Shown: positions 240 to 32,491 of the stretch, piece after piece
Layout of the letters: every line of letters starts with the position of its first letter
Position numbering within the stretch: the stretch's first letter is position 1
Assembly: GCA_029224465.1 (NCBI GenBank)
Contig: JAQXUQ010000012.1
Span: 1 to 32,643 of the forward strand
DNA from: Bacillota bacterium
GTDB taxonomy: Bacteria > Bacillota > Clostridia > Lachnospirales > Lachnospiraceae
Direction of reading: 5' to 3'
Length of the DNA: 32,643 nt
Made by a program: the position numbers and the translations under genes
The notes under the pieces: model-generated
Seen by the model: the letters and a program-made list of their open reading frames with translations, nothing else
Database searches by the model: none
What the model was told of the DNA's origin: nothing

Positions 240-409
240 CTATGCAATAGCACCGTGACTTGCTCTTCTGCATAGATTTCCCAAGACATTTCAAAGACGC
301 GGGCGCGTACTGCATAGATTTTGGCATTTTCTATGCAATACGGCCCGCGCCGTCTGTTTCGTCTTGAATTTTTCATGCAGTACGCGTGTCAACAGCTGTA
401 TTGCATGAA
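240..409. repeat. Cluster of three hairpins with TGCATAG/CTATGCA-type stems
   Basis: Three inverted repeats lie in a row. The first pairs 240-246 with 269-275 (CTATGCA/TGCATAG). The second spans 296-354, with TGCATAGA pairing TCTATGCA and a GC-rich outer stem built on GACG...CGTC. The third pairs 372-383 with 398-409 (TTCATGCA/TGCATGAA, extended by four more pairs including one G-T). No convincing reading frame crosses this tract. The GCAATA core links these hairpins to the next repeat group. Confidence 0.6.
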
Positions 410-473
410 GCGAGTCGCGCGCCGGAAAGTTTGGCTTGCCAGGTACCTTGCCGCGCGCCGTTTGCAGGAGGAT

Positions 474-647
474 CTTCACGCAATAATGCTTCGCATATTG
501 CAGTGGGGACCCGTTTTTGTCTTCACGCAATAGTGCTTCGCATTTTGCAGTGGGAACGCGTTTTTGTCCTCACGCAACAATACTCCGTATGTTGCGTGGG
601 ACCCGTTTTGTCTTCACGCAATAATGCTCCGCATATTGCGTGGAGAC
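474..647. repeat. Tandem hairpin repeat, about 47 bp, 3.8 copies
   Basis: Copies lie at 474-520, 521-567, 568-611 and 612-647 (partial). Each starts C(T/C)TCACGCAA, contains a palindrome of the form CACGCAAT-A-ATGC-loop-GCAT-ATTGCGTG, and the first three end in a CCGTTTTTGT-like spacer. In the third copy both arms change together (CAAC with GTTG, ATAC with GTAT), so pairing is kept. The last copy runs into the stop codon of the leftward gene at 647. Confidence 0.8.
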
Positions 648-2212
648 TAGTACCCCGGCATCACCGGATTAATGAACGGTGCATCCGGCATCTCCTCCAT
701 CTTCTTCGAATAGTCGGCTTCCGCCTGTGTCTCCAGCCCGTTCGCGACCGCCCAGTCGTCATACGGTATCGCGCGGATGCTGCTCACGCCATAATATTCT
801 TCATATCCGACGTTCGTCCAGTAGCCCGGATCCTCCGTGAGCTCCATCTCCGGCAGCGCGGAATAATCATTATAAAAGTCCTTGTGCACCTGCGCGACCG
901 TAATATCATCGTTTCCTTCCGCAATCTGCTTCTCAATGTAGTCTGCGCGTTCTTTCCAGTCACGGTAGATGCGCACATTCGAAGCGCCGCACCGGAAATA
1001 CATAAAGACGAAATACAAAGACAGAACCATCAGAATCGAATATGTCACCGTCCGTACGCCAATGCTCCGGTCGGTTCTGATTTCCAGATTTAACGCAGTG
1101 CGGACAAGAGATAGCACCGCAATGATCAGGAAAATGCCCGCGCCGAAATACGCGCGCGGCTGCGTAGGCTCTGTCAGAATCAGCGCATATGCGGTAATCA
1201 GGAACAGAAACAGAAAGACCAGCGGCCGCCGAAGCATATAAAGGAGCTCTCTGCGTTCCTCTTTCCGTGCAAGCAGATGAATGACAATTAGCAGAATTCC
1301 GGAGACGCACAGCAGTACAAAGAAATACTGACAGACAATCAGCGTTACTTTCTGAAAGCGGGAAGCCAGCCCGAGAATCCCGGTATAATTGCCCTTTTCC
1401 CGCACCTGTGCACGAAGCGCGTTGCCCGGCGCGAGCACCATAAACAACAGTCCTGTCAGTGTTCCCAGGGCACCTGCGATGCCTTCCGCGAACCATTTCT
1501 TTTCATTTACTCTTTCATCAATGACAAGCAGAAGGATATAGACGAGGCATGCGCCGGAAGTATTTTCGCTGCACCAGCCCGCGACAACGCCGAACACGAA
1601 CAGCGGAATCAGAAGGATCCCCCTGCGCAGGCCTTTCCGCTCCGGCACGATAACAGACGTGCCGGCAGACACAGCTGCAGGCGCATTGGCAGGCGCAGCA
1701 GCAGATGTACCTGCAGACACGGCGGTGACGGCAGCACCGCGGAAACGGCGCATTGTCGTCATCATGGCAAGAATGATCGTTGTCGTCCAAAGGTAGTTGC
1801 ACGCACCGGTCTGCCACAGAACGGTCTGGCGGAAGTCCACGGTAAACAGCCACAGGCTCAGCTGGATCAGGAGAAATACTATGGGATCATACTTTTTGCG
1901 GCGCGGTATCTGCAGATATATCAGATACGAGAGAAGCACGAACATGGCGCTGTTCGCTGTTTTGAACAGGAGCAGAGGGAGCCGCAGAGAAATCCGAAGA
2001 ATCAGGTGCGCGACCGACCGTCCGATCCATGTCATATACTGGTGATATTCCTGTGCGATCAGATCCGCAAGTCCCCGCGCGGTCCTCGCCTGCGCGGCAT
2101 AGCCATAGTCGTCAGAAAGAAACGGCGTGAAATAATTAAATATGAAAATTGCAACAAACGAAAACAGCGTGATCAGATACATGGCTGTCTTCTTCGGGTT
2201 CCGCAGCTTCAT
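647..2212 (-). CDS. DUF6056-like polytopic membrane protein, possible GT-C-type glycosyltransferase
   Basis: A 521-residue integral membrane protein with roughly ten or more hydrophobic segments. The N-terminus is a signal-anchor-like helix followed by a loop containing PFLSDDYGYA and then EYHQYMTWIGR. That arrangement (first helix, then an acidic pair in the first outer loop) resembles lipid-sugar-dependent GT-C transferases. I recognise the family as DUF6056-like from memory; the enzymatic role is inference. The C-terminal 80 residues are hydrophilic. An Ala/Ser/Pro-rich insert with two copies of VSAGTS interrupts a cytoplasmic or outer loop. The ATG at 2212 is preferred because AAAGGA sits about 8 nt upstream; an in-frame upstream start at 2257 would overlap the previous gene. 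It lies 13 bp after the ABC transporter, probably in the same operon. Confidence 0.75.
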   Translation of the reverse strand: MKLRNPKKTAMYLITLFSFVAIFIFNYFTPFLSDDYGYAAQARTARGLADLIAQEYHQYMTWIGRSVAHLILRISLRLPLLLFKTANSAMFVLLSYLIYLQIPRRKKYDPIVFLLIQLSLWLFTVDFRQTVLWQTGACNYLWTTTIILAMMTTMRRFRGAAVTAVSAGTSAAAPANAPAAVSAGTSVIVPERKGLRRGILLIPLFVFGVVAGWCSENTSGACLVYILLLVIDERVNEKKWFAEGIAGALGTLTGLLFMVLAPGNALRAQVREKGNYTGILGLASRFQKVTLIVCQYFFVLLCVSGILLIVIHLLARKEERRELLYMLRRPLVFLFLFLITAYALILTEPTQPRAYFGAGIFLIIAVLSLVRTALNLEIRTDRSIGVRTVTYSILMVLSLYFVFMYFRCGASNVRIYRDWKERADYIEKQIAEGNDDITVAQVHKDFYNDYSALPEMELTEDPGYWTNVGYEEYYGVSSIRAIPYDDWAVANGLETQAEADYSKKMEEMPDAPFINPVMPGY

Positions 2213-2225
2213 CGCATTTGTCCTT

Positions 2226-4205
2226 TCAATCCGCCTGTCCGCGCAGCGGCTGACCACGTCCCAGGTCTTCCTGCAGCGTAAAGCCCTGGTGATCGACGCG
2301 GTATACGTAGTCGCAGTTCTGAATGGTCGTCAGTCTGTGAGCTACGATAATCAGTGTTTTTTTGCCGTGCAAGGCCTCAATGGCTTCCATGATCGCCGTC
2401 TCTGTATCATTGTCGAGCGCCGATGTCGCCTCGTCAAAGATCATGATTTCGGGATCATTGTACAAAGCCCTCGCGATGCCGATTCTCTGCCGCTGTCCGC
2501 CCGAAATCCGTACGCCTCTCTCTCCGATGCCGGAATCCAGGCCGTATTTCTGGCCGCGGACAAAGTCGTCAATCTGGGCTTGTTTCAGCGCTTTCCAGAC
2601 CTTCTCATCATCAATCTGATCGTCCGGAACGCCGTAGGCGACATTGCGCCTGATCGTGTCGTCCAGCATATACATGAGCTGCGGCACATAACCGATATCC
2701 TTATACCAGCCGGAAAGGTTGTTTCTGATATCTTCCCCGTCGACCGTGATCCTTCCCTCCTGCGGCGCGAGGAGTCCCAGAATCAGATCAACGGTTGTGG
2801 ATTTCCCGGCGCCGGAAGGGCCGACCAGTCCGATCGATTTTCCTTTCGGAATCGAAAGCGACGCATGCCTGAGGATATCCACGTCTTCCTTTCCGGGATA
2901 ATGGTAGGTGATATTCTCGAGTTTCACTTCCTTTGTAAAGCGGATCGGCTCGGCGTTTTCTTCGTTCTCGTAATGCTTTTCCCTCTCAAGCGTGTGCGCA
3001 TGCTGAATAATGTCCTCGACATCCAGGAAGGCCGGCTCATAATAGGAAATATTGTTCAGGCACGAGACAACGCGGTTCGCGCTCGGCATAATCCGGACCG
3101 CGACCATCGCGAGCACACCGACCTGTCCGATCATGCTGCCGGTTCCCGACTCGCTGCCGCTTCCGAGAAATATGCCCAGCATCGCGAGTATGCCGACGAT
3201 CATAACGGTCTCGATACTGAGTCTTGGCAAATTCGAAAAGGTCTGCTGCATCTGCTGGATCTGGTTGAGTCTGCCGGCACTGATTTCAAACTGAGAAGCA
3301 AAGTAATGCTCCTTGTTCAGCACCTTCGTCTCCTTGATTCCGTTCATGGACTGCAGGAGCCATTTCGTCTGCATCGCCTGATTGTCCTTGACTTCCTGTC
3401 CGAAACGACGCAGCATCGGGCTGAAGAATTTCCGGTTAATCAGAAGCACGATGCCGATGAAAAATCCCATCATCAGCGTCATAACCGGGCTGACCGCAAG
3501 AGAAAGCGCAATCAGAAAAATAAAAACGATCAGCTCCGTAAACAGCTGCAGATAGGTCAGAATCAGGTTGTAGGTGCCGTTGACATCGCTGACGATATGC
3601 TGAATGACCAGAGGCGTGCTGGCGTCCAGAAAGAATTCGTACGGCCTGTGCAGAATTTCCTTAAACAGCACCCTGGAAGTATTGTACTGGCCGTTATAGA
3701 CAAACCGGTACTGCGCGTAATACATGAAGAACAGGTACAGATTTTTCGCGATAAAAACAATGATCAGCGCAATAATAATCAGAATCAGGAACTGGTTCAC
3801 GCTCTCAAGATGCCAGTGTTCGCTGATCATGCGCATGTACTTGTTGCCGGAAACGGATTCGGGGCTGGTCGCCGCTGTAATCAGAGGCAGAATAAGAGAT
3901 GTGCCGATCGTTTCAAGCGCGGCGCCTGCGACCATCATCACGAACAGGATCACCATGACCCTCTTCTGTCTTTTTGTCAAAACATGAAAGACGCGCCGCA
4001 GCAGATGCCCCGATTTCCGATACGTGTGCCTGCCGTCTCTTCGGCCATCGCTACCGAAAATCATCTTCCGGGCTTTGTCATTCTCCGATTTGTCGTATTC
4101 CTGCCGGGCATCTTCACCTTGTTTTGGTTTTTCAAAAGCCGGCTGCGAAGACGTTTCCGCCCCCGCAGTTTCTCCGGCTCTGTGTTCCATCAATTTATCA
4201 TTCAT
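2226..4205 (-). CDS. ABC transporter, fused permease and ATPase (PglK-like flippase/exporter)
   Basis: An exporter-type half transporter of about 659 residues. A charged, low-complexity cytoplasmic extension of about 65 residues precedes six membrane helices (about 80-390). The nucleotide-binding domain follows: Walker A GPSGAGKST near 463-470, Q-loop in YVPQ, signature ISGGQRQR near 568-574, Walker B IMIFDEA near 591, and H-loop in IVAHRLT. The fold and the ABC part resemble PglK/WlaB lipid-linked oligosaccharide flippases, but multidrug or lipid export cannot be excluded. The start is uncertain: ATG at 4205 is chosen; a TTG at 4232 would add nine residues, and no strong SD supports either. 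It lies 48 bp after dnaB and just before the DUF6056-like gene, which suggests a shared envelope or glycan role. Confidence 0.85.
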   Translation of the reverse strand: MNDKLMEHRAGETAGAETSSQPAFEKPKQGEDARQEYDKSENDKARKMIFGSDGRRDGRHTYRKSGHLLRRVFHVLTKRQKRVMVILFVMMVAGAALETIGTSLILPLITAATSPESVSGNKYMRMISEHWHLESVNQFLILIIIALIIVFIAKNLYLFFMYYAQYRFVYNGQYNTSRVLFKEILHRPYEFFLDASTPLVIQHIVSDVNGTYNLILTYLQLFTELIVFIFLIALSLAVSPVMTLMMGFFIGIVLLINRKFFSPMLRRFGQEVKDNQAMQTKWLLQSMNGIKETKVLNKEHYFASQFEISAGRLNQIQQMQQTFSNLPRLSIETVMIVGILAMLGIFLGSGSESGTGSMIGQVGVLAMVAVRIMPSANRVVSCLNNISYYEPAFLDVEDIIQHAHTLEREKHYENEENAEPIRFTKEVKLENITYHYPGKEDVDILRHASLSIPKGKSIGLVGPSGAGKSTTVDLILGLLAPQEGRITVDGEDIRNNLSGWYKDIGYVPQLMYMLDDTIRRNVAYGVPDDQIDDEKVWKALKQAQIDDFVRGQKYGLDSGIGERGVRISGGQRQRIGIARALYNDPEIMIFDEATSALDNDTETAIMEAIEALHGKKTLIIVAHRLTTIQNCDYVYRVDHQGFTLQEDLGRGQPLRGQAD

Positions 4206-9189: not shown

Positions 9190-9540
9190 TTAAGCGTTCT
9201 GCTCAGCAGCATCCTGTTTAGCAGCGGTCTGTTTGGCAGCGGTCTGTTCAACAGCATCCTGCTTAACGCACAGATATCTGATGACATTGTCCATAATGCG
9301 CATTCTGCTCTCGATCTCAGCGATAGCAGAACCTTCAGCTTCGAAACGAACGAAGTAATAATAGCCCTCGTCCATCTTCTGAATGGGGTAAGCAAGCTTC
9401 TTCTTGCCCCAGCTGGAGTCAACAACTACATTGACTGCGCCGAATCTTTCGACGAGCTCTTTGCAGTTATCGACGACAGCAGCTCTCGCTTCATCATCAA
9501 TCTGCGCATTCACAACAACGGCTAACTCGTATTTGCTCAT
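9190..9540 (-). CDS. rpsF: 30S ribosomal protein S6 with a repeated C-terminal tail
   Basis: A 116-residue S6, the partner of S18. The core (1-94) shows MSKYELAVVVNAQID, the GKKKLAYPIQKMDEGYYYFVRFE strand and the MRIMDNVIRYLCV helix. After the core, four five-residue repeats of the form (D/T)A(A/V)(E/K)Q build a polar tail, encoded by 15-bp imperfect tandem repeats at about 9190-9265. AGAAGGAGGTAGAAGCAC precedes the ATG. First gene of the operon. Confidence 0.97.
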   Translation of the reverse strand: MSKYELAVVVNAQIDDEARAAVVDNCKELVERFGAVNVVVDSSWGKKKLAYPIQKMDEGYYYFVRFEAEGSAIAEIESRMRIMDNVIRYLCVKQDAVEQTAAKQTAAKQDAAEQNA

Positions 9541-16097: not shown

Positions 16098-16112
16098 CTG
16101 CGCGTAATCAGA

Positions 16113-16200
16113 TAATCTGCTTCCTTACGCCGGTATTATCCGGTTCAAGTAATAAGGGTCCCCGCGAATGCGGAGTCTCAGCGTCAGCGCCCCTAGCGAT
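16113..16200 (-). ncRNA. TPP riboswitch (thi box)
   Basis: On the minus strand the element begins GCTAGGGGCGC, contains CTGAGA at 16181-16176, then GACCCTTA, ACTTGAACCGGATAATACCGG and ends GCGTAAGGAAGC (16119). These are the conserved J/P segments of the thiamin pyrophosphate aptamer. It lies between the promoter at 16248-16276 and the terminator at 16071-16097, and should shut the thi operon when TPP is plentiful. Confidence 0.96.
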
Positions 16201-16247
16201 GTTCATTTATGAATTTGGAATCCGGACAAAACCGTCCGCAGATATTA

Positions 16248-28166: not shown

Positions 28167-28262
28167 TCGAAGCGCGGTTCAGGGGAGAGAGTCGAAGTGC
28201 CGCGCAGAGGAGAGTCGCAGCATCGCGCAGGGAAACGGGACGAAGCAGCGTTCAGAGGAAAA
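28167..28262. repeat. Degenerate tandem repeat of about 24 bp, four units
   Basis: Units at 28167-28191, 28192-28214, 28215-28240 and 28241-28262 share the pattern (t)cgaagygcgcgttcagrggaga with many changes. The tract is purine-rich on the plus strand and holds no gene. It lies between the galK promoter and the degV terminator. Confidence 0.55.
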
Positions 28263-32386: not shown

Positions 32387-32397
32387 CTGGTTTTCAT

Positions 32398-32491
32398 GCA
32401 GGTGCGGGGCGTTCATGCGGGCGCAGCGCTCTACGCAGGTACGGGGTGTTCATGCGGATGCGGCGCTTTACACAGATGCGCCCCGATCATT
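32398..32491. repeat. 37-bp tandem repeat, two full copies and a degenerate third
   Basis: Copies at 32398-32434 and 32435-32471 match at about 32 of 37 positions (GCAGGTGCGGGGCGTTCATG...CTAC). A decayed partial copy follows to about 32491. The tract lies just past the XRE-type gene and beside the intron boundary. I see no gene in it. Confidence 0.75.

Follow-up and report, generated by a model that had tools for sequence, protein, structure and literature searches.

Among repeated DNA elements, the bcr1 repeats are both intergenic and palindromic. ERIC sequences are described in the same terms, as intergenic, palindromic and repeated, in the passages of PMC2229807 that concern us here. The same paper treats YPAL (RU-2) of Yersinia, an intergenic element of approximately 168 bp with internal inverted repeats, which has target duplications of 3–26 bp and targets at dyad symmetry, and which is known from both empty and filled sites (PMC2229807). 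The REP/BIME hairpins are palindromes of 20–40 bp, many of which are found downstream of genes and which are tagged with GTAG or CGTC; their sub-families carry alternative complementary stem letters, some with bulges of 1 nt (excerpts of PMC3733652). Furthermore, families of stem-loop repeats have been surveyed in 40 genomes (PMC2267715, in the portion used here).

Here we examine the window, i.e., the whole stretch of 32,643 nucleotides of contig JAQXUQ010000012.1 from a rumen-type bacterium of the Lachnospiraceae (assembly GCA_029224465.1), in which seven hairpins lie at the end of the gdpP-dnaB-ABC-DUF6056 operon. These hairpins are two unrelated structured repeats, three of them forming element A and four of them array B. 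We consider it reasonably probable that a mobile element (A) and a REP-like array (B) are stacked at this operon end. Element A is most like YPAL in its size, its internal inverted repeats, its intergenic position and the existence of empty and filled sites, a likeness of description. Comparable with the dyad targets of YPAL, it lies in a hairpin array beside a terminator at the sole site examined for this. It is unlike YPAL in that its framework blocks are split by four variable stretches of approximately 19 nt and in that direct repeats occur at few copies. Element A also resembles ERIC and bcr1 in being intergenic, palindromic and repeated, again by description and not letter by letter, but the hosts differ, six A loci gave nothing near the gathering score of any Rfam family (E ≤ 5), and A has no match in plasmid and phage collections. 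Array B shares with REP, as the cited excerpts describe it, a short palindrome behind genes, alternative complementary stems and a bulge, whereas GTAG occurs within 6 nt of the ends in 0 of its 12 hairpins and CGTC in only one, where it overlaps the stem; unlike REP with RAYT, it has no RAYT or Y1 transposase in its genomes and was found at only three loci. By description, both repeats are of the same general type as the structured intergenic families in the portion of PMC2267715 referred to above. The literature searched on this bacterial group contained no description of such a repeat. A and B look like new families of known kinds.

Two structured repeats behind the DUF6056 gene

The earlier note on this DNA, made from its letters, had placed the hairpins behind a gdpP-dnaB-ABC-DUF6056 operon, and Pfam confirmed each of these gene identities (GdpP, DnaB, ABC transporter, DUF6056). 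The DUF6056 gene (647–2257, minus strand; PF19528, E 1.6e-115) is the last of this minus-strand operon and its reading frame ends at 647. A terminator-like inverted repeat with 21-nt arms, 95% complementary, is situated at 142–185 and is also present in the genome of a sister species (RUG304; G029, with G000 denoting the window's own genome). Between stop codon and terminator, at the position given in the note, array B (472–647) runs from the DUF6056 stop codon as four hairpins of 37–39 nt on the plus strand, i.e., unit 1 (472–510, 39 nt), unit 2 (519–557, 39 nt, with the poorest fold), unit 3 (566–602, 37 nt) and unit 4 (610–647, 38 nt). The four tandem units that had been described were recovered at 473–519, 520–566, 567–613 and 611–657, with spacings of 47, 47 and 44, and the joint change of both arms of unit 3 is indeed seen in the unit alignment. 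The core of element A, a framework palindrome of 171 nt, occupies 239–409 on the plus strand; including flanking blocks the full insertion spans approximately 208–472, with ends uncertain by about 10–15 nt, as judged from the empty site in G029 and from conserved flank blocks elsewhere. The three hairpins at 240–409 are blocks of this single palindrome and not separate family members. They comprise, on the plus strand, a left local hairpin (239–276) with TCTATGCA/TGCATAGA arms that vary little, a central hairpin (289–359), of which the own-copy complementarity exceeds that between copies, and a right local hairpin (372–409) with weak covariation.

Folded as DNA and compared with shuffles, unit 3 (z -5.0) and unit 4 (z -5.7) are clearly structured and unit 1 is weakly so (z -2.3), while the fold of unit 2 is no better than that of shuffles (z -0.5; 64 of 200 equally good). 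For element A, the fold is strong at 296–350 (z -6.0), moderate at 365–420 (z -3.0) and weak at 236–280 (z -2.1). The minus-strand RNA of 190–660 folds at -202.3 kcal/mol versus -144.7 kcal/mol in 100 shuffles (z -8.75).

That all seven hairpins form one family, as the note had proposed from the GCAATA/TATTGC letters common to both sets, is contradicted by covariance models. The model of 239–409 (R1) was built from 17 copies of this sequence, with L026 and L032 of the initial 19 omitted as odd or truncated; it matches the window only at 239–409 (170.5 bits), even at E ≤ 5. At the same threshold, the model of the 38-nt array hairpin (R3) matches within the window only the four array units (41.5, 30.9, 47.1 and 58.8 bits for units 1 to 4). 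Since neither model matches the other set in the window, the shared letters are no evidence of one family. The single R3 match that touches A, a weak one (E 0.016) in a search of both genomes at E ≤ 2, falls at the end of an A copy, and A and B are unlike in copy number, sites and history. The single family is therefore rejected, and we regard it as highly improbable. What holds of the original description is that the hairpins are real, with their inverted repeats, their paired changes, four tandem units and three further hairpins.

Some other features of the window may be recorded. Positions 1–141, directly adjoining the terminator, are the end of a group II intron that has eight near-full matches in the genome, the window included, at least five of them at contig ends; in L206 the intron copy matches group-II-D1D4 and contains a reading frame with RVT_1 and GIIM. 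Class IIC introns are characteristically located next to terminators. The only Rfam family found in the window at gathering score is a TPP riboswitch (16105–16204, minus strand, 64.5 bits), and short tandem repeats are present at 9205–9265, 28187–28230 and 32393–32475.

Element A: anatomy, distribution and insertion history

R1 (E ≤ 0.01) locates element A at no fewer than 44 separate sites in G000 and 23 in G029, with matches on both strands merged. Both counts are lower bounds, because scoring covered 150 candidates out of 505 in the former genome and 150 out of 425 in the latter. Its length is 171 nt in 50 of the 67 copies and 170–172 nt in 63 of them. Aligned over 171 columns, A is a framework palindrome with its centre at column 86, made up of the blocks TCTATGCAATA, TGCATAGATTTTTCAAGACA and TATTGCATAGATTT and their inverts, with the variable stretches in between. 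A TTGCATAGA-like motif appears six times in mirror order, with at most two mismatches in 41, 45, 41, 31, 38 and 41 of 50 copies. RNAalifold yields one long nested palindrome and not three hairpins; the outer pairs of this palindrome hardly vary and are uninformative either way.

Within A, covariation is seen in the central hairpin. Its pairs 76–96, 78–94 and 79–93 covary above shuffles (z 2.3, 3.3 and 2.1), while the left and right local hairpins do not exceed them (321 vs. 319 and 308 vs. 300 expected). In a single fixed register the outer arms of the central hairpin show no excess (359 paired vs. 360 expected), but when the register is left free their complementarity is 6.51 within a copy against 4.92 across copies (z 6.5, n = 49); the letters of this outer stem differ among copies, self-complementarity is kept and the register shifts from copy to copy. 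Of the 21 segment pairs compared, those ranking next combined the 3' flank with the first loop (z 3.1) and var4 with var2 (z 2.6). An unbiased mutual-information scan revealed no distinct stem, its signal apparently reflecting subfamily structure for the most part. A guide of the bridge-RNA type, in which the variable stretches would match the flanks of their own copy, was considered and set aside, the own-versus-cross comparisons (16) giving weak z values from -1.3 to 2.9. The highest z among the flank tests of A segments was 3.1; our guess is that such weak matching may come from a subfamily with a first loop complementary to its 3' tail.

The distribution of A is narrow. In a BLAST search of the genus with 210–660, the left half of this query recurred many times in G000 and in a single sister, G029, and with 45 candidates scored per genome A was found in 2 out of 62 genus genomes, i.e., G000 and G029. 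In a family set of 299 genomes (approximately one per genus, 9 candidates scored per genome, so that weak copies may be missed) only G000 carried it. A pattern scan of named genome contigs gave 14 stretches, of which R1 confirmed all nine from RUG304 (8) and RUG409 (1) and none of the five from other organisms. Within the genomes A is intergenic; none of the 67 copies lies inside a reading frame of at least 300 aa and 10 overlap the edge of one by 1–89 nt, while 1 copy falls wholly within a mechanical ORF of at least 250 aa and 18 within one of at least 100 aa. By crude ORF calls, the genes beside the copies have all orientations. The suggestion that the hairpins at 240–409 serve as a 3' UTR thus finds no support; they are an inserted element whose other copies stand between genes in every orientation. 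The note's alternative of a REP/MITE-like family fared well. Further copies in the genome, the absence of which, together with lost pairing in relatives, was to count against the note, do exist, at the 44 places of A and in a second trio of array-type hairpins between gyrB and gyrA.

Copies of A in tandem were observed at L116 (G000:C31:3904-8838) and L113 (G000:C10:77652-81694), with spacings of 244 and 272 nt and with flanking DNA duplicated along. Clustered copies were also considered as a composite transposon and this was dismissed; of the four ORFs between or near them, Pfam assigns one metallophosphoesterase and one cupin and leaves two unmatched.

Comparison with the sister species reveals both shared and unshared insertions. 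Of the 23 copies in G029, 19 are at sites orthologous to filled G000 sites. For 13 other G000 copies, 11 flanks could be mapped to G029, of which 8 were readable across and 3 were not; none of the 8 sites holds a full element and 2 hold remnants. At the window site G029 has the terminator, a degenerate half-unit and then the hairpin array without A; by eye, a stretch of approximately 265 nt in G000 corresponds to approximately 12 nt there. Because the spacing of the array is intact in G029, the simpler reading is that A would have been inserted here in the window's lineage after its split from the sister. The margins of the full copy contain conserved flank blocks that are also present in other copies. 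Direct repeats of 19 and 18 nt surround one insertion each, and repeats scoring at least 12 flank 9 of the 67 copies (5 of these in tandem or with related flanks) against 9 of 536 cross-pairs. Since this leaves only 4 of the 67 copies, with repeats of 14–21 nt, outside tandem or related flanks, and none clear at the window, target-site duplication does not appear to be general for A. No transposase is tied to A; the family searched, Y1_Tnp (PF01797), gave no match in either G000 (95.9% complete as an assembly) or G029 (87%), though it is present in 42 of the 62 genus genomes. A separate observation is that G000:C4:10910 (L136) and G029:C28:69011 (L153) are at an orthologous place with right halves of A that differ in kind, as if modules might have been exchanged between copies.

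With its many intergenic places and its filled and empty orthologous sites, A fits a miniature mobile element in the broad bacterial sense. We picture it as a probable non-coding palindromic element of the YPAL/ERIC kind, which would move by transposition through a putative enzyme and which would have entered the spacer bordering the array on its outer side after the two species had separated.

Array B: loci, hairpin form and possible role

The array hairpin opens with GTCTTCA and continues with six pairs, a bulged A, four pairs and a triloop TNY before it ends in TGGAGAC. Twelve copies occur at three loci in G000 and G029, comprising four in the window, the trio between gyrB and gyrA (G000 C34), three at the site in G029 that is orthologous to that of the window array, and two, absent from G000, behind a gene of haloacid-dehalogenase type (HAD) in G029; the gene families at the gyr and HAD loci were confirmed. 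The bulged A is found in 12 out of 12 hairpins, and the triloop is TNY in all and TNC in 11. A search of 62 genus genomes gave strong matches only in G000 and G029, and one in G051 at E 0.016. The gyrB gene was not found in G029 with a 160-nt query, so that the description of this locus rests on G000.

The stems of B change in pairs. In five aligned copies 97.6% of the cells are paired, both partners are changed in 7 of 17 pairs (as many in 4 of 500 shuffles), and covariation is 0.494 compared with 0.245 in shuffles, none of 500 being as high. With two more copies, found by the five-copy model or adjoining such a match, 92.4% of cells are paired, 8 of 17 pairs are doubly changed and again no shuffle out of 500 reached the covariation, while slid pairings of the alignment give at most 57.1% paired. 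Further pair types were no more numerous than in shuffles, 479 out of 500 shuffles being as high with five copies and 469 with seven. The proposal of selection on the fold is supported for the array units, and pairing is also retained in the sister species. There, the three units at the orthologous site have T where the four window units have C, which indicates homogenization of the units within each species; in the last one the partner has changed too, from CACGC/GCGTG to CATGC/GCATG. Units spread by tandem duplication, remain similar to one another within a species and keep their shape while stem letters are replaced in pairs.

The position of B fits a role at gene ends. In mRNA sense, unit 4 of the window, at the DUF6056 gene, overlaps a TAG stop codon by a single base, as does the nearer hairpin at the HAD gene of G029; at gyrB, the trio begins 1 nt past a TAA. 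The strand, by contrast, argues against a role in mRNA. Read on the GTCTTC strand, the 108 inner cells comprise 98 Watson-Crick, 8 G-T, 0 A-C and 2 other pairs, with 6 of the 8 G-T cells at the same columns (15–25) and hence not independent. In 11 of the 12 hairpins this strand runs antisense to the gene, and one hairpin at gyr is reversed. Because the odd inner pairs are G-T and never A-C on the antisense strand, and the outer T-G pair is retained in 7 of 7 aligned copies, an RNA reading needs a gene-sense hairpin that tolerates A-C mismatches; for unit 4 the predicted energy of the gene-sense strand is -18.4 kcal/mol, which is still good, compared with -22.4 kcal/mol for the other. From these sequences B seems best explained as a REP-like gene-end hairpin, and the strand bias makes the RNA reading less certain. 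Its most probable role would be that of REP-type hairpins behind genes, in that it might block 3' exonucleases or bind a protein recognizing bulge and loop. That B would act as RNA is, in our estimate, slightly short of an even case; that it would be a predicted recognition site on one DNA strand seems rather less probable.

Alternative readings and significance

The paired changes of B might have arisen because one arm was repaired or converted to match its partner, as the earlier note had also suggested with its repair between arms, without selection on the fold. Palindromes can be corrected arm on arm, and the units are alike within each species, so copying does occur. However, such copying would tend toward perfectly complementary arms, and the bulged A is invariably kept, as is a T-G pair at columns 5–34 in all seven aligned copies, while other pairs co-change. 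We consider this origin of the changes unlikely. A different reading is that B is recognized as single-stranded DNA by a mobility enzyme, comparable with RAYT and REP, and that its place at gene ends is merely harmless. The occurrence of G-T without A-C on one DNA strand is in line with this, as are the presence and absence of hairpins between species at the HAD locus and their two orientations within gyrB-gyrA; the start of the hairpins at stop codons, the three loci only, the want of a conserved GTAG or CGTC tag and the missing Y1 transposase all argue against it. Mobilisation of the RAYT/REP type is accordingly unsupported, Y1_Tnp being absent from both (incomplete) assemblies, and the single-stranded DNA reading as a whole seems to us possible but rather doubtful. 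The REP-like gene-end hairpin remains our preferred explanation of B.

For element A the competing thought is that it is no longer selfish DNA and that its structure is kept by selection, either as a platform of six TTGCATAGA-like sites for a chromosome protein or as a structured RNA. Sixteen orthologous pairs bear on this. Their framework is identical at 1355 of 1436 positions (94.4%; columns off by one in part of the few 170- and 172-nt copies) and their variable part at 1106 of 1295 (85.4%), compared with flanks of 82.2% (644/783) at 0–30 nt, 80.9% (570/705) at 30–60 nt, 85.5% (882/1031) at 60–100 nt, 89.4% (2706/3028) at 100–200 nt and 87.4% (7469/8548) at 300–600 nt. In 14 of the 16 pairs the framework is more alike than the 30–60 nt flank, yet it surpasses the 300–600 nt flank in only 11. 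Gap columns number 13 of 2744 inside A versus 1410 of 3929 within 100 nt outside, a count biased by the omission of 3 of the 19 pairs with a truncated or rearranged copy. The framework and the length of A thus seem to stand out as conserved, and the variable part, which is no more alike than DNA at 100–200 or 300–600 nt, does not. This uniformity, together with the nearly constant length across 67 copies and the six sites of the motif, each close to intact in 31 to 45 of 50 copies, would suit a selected structure. Against this stand the eight sites and the window site without a full element in the sister, the restriction to two genus genomes and the possibility that gene conversion between copies keeps the framework uniform; the apparent conservation could owe something both to such conversion and to the fact that the copies compared are those that were retained. 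Selection for such a structure is, in our view, conceivable but unlikely to be the explanation, and we continue to regard A as a probable mobile element.

What was observed is real, has good support both as structure and as mobile DNA, and is ordinary in kind. The window presents a clear-cut example of the insertion of a palindromic mini-element into a gene-end hairpin array, for which the sister species provides the empty control. Two features deserve to be singled out, the length of A, which hardly varies, and the bulge and loop of B, which stay fixed. In B, the bulge and triloop are fixed while the stems co-change at three loci, including gyrB-gyrA, which points to a reader of shape. In A, the low indel rate of retained copies beside fast-changing flanks raises the question of whether such repeats are junk or are kept. 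It is a doubtful prospect, though one with consequences, that A has been taken over by the cell, in which case at least 44 palindromes of near-fixed length across the chromosome, each with six mirror-ordered TTGCATAGA-like sites and almost free of indels where retained, would be predicted binding platforms or structured RNAs, of which the number and position are still changing between sister species.
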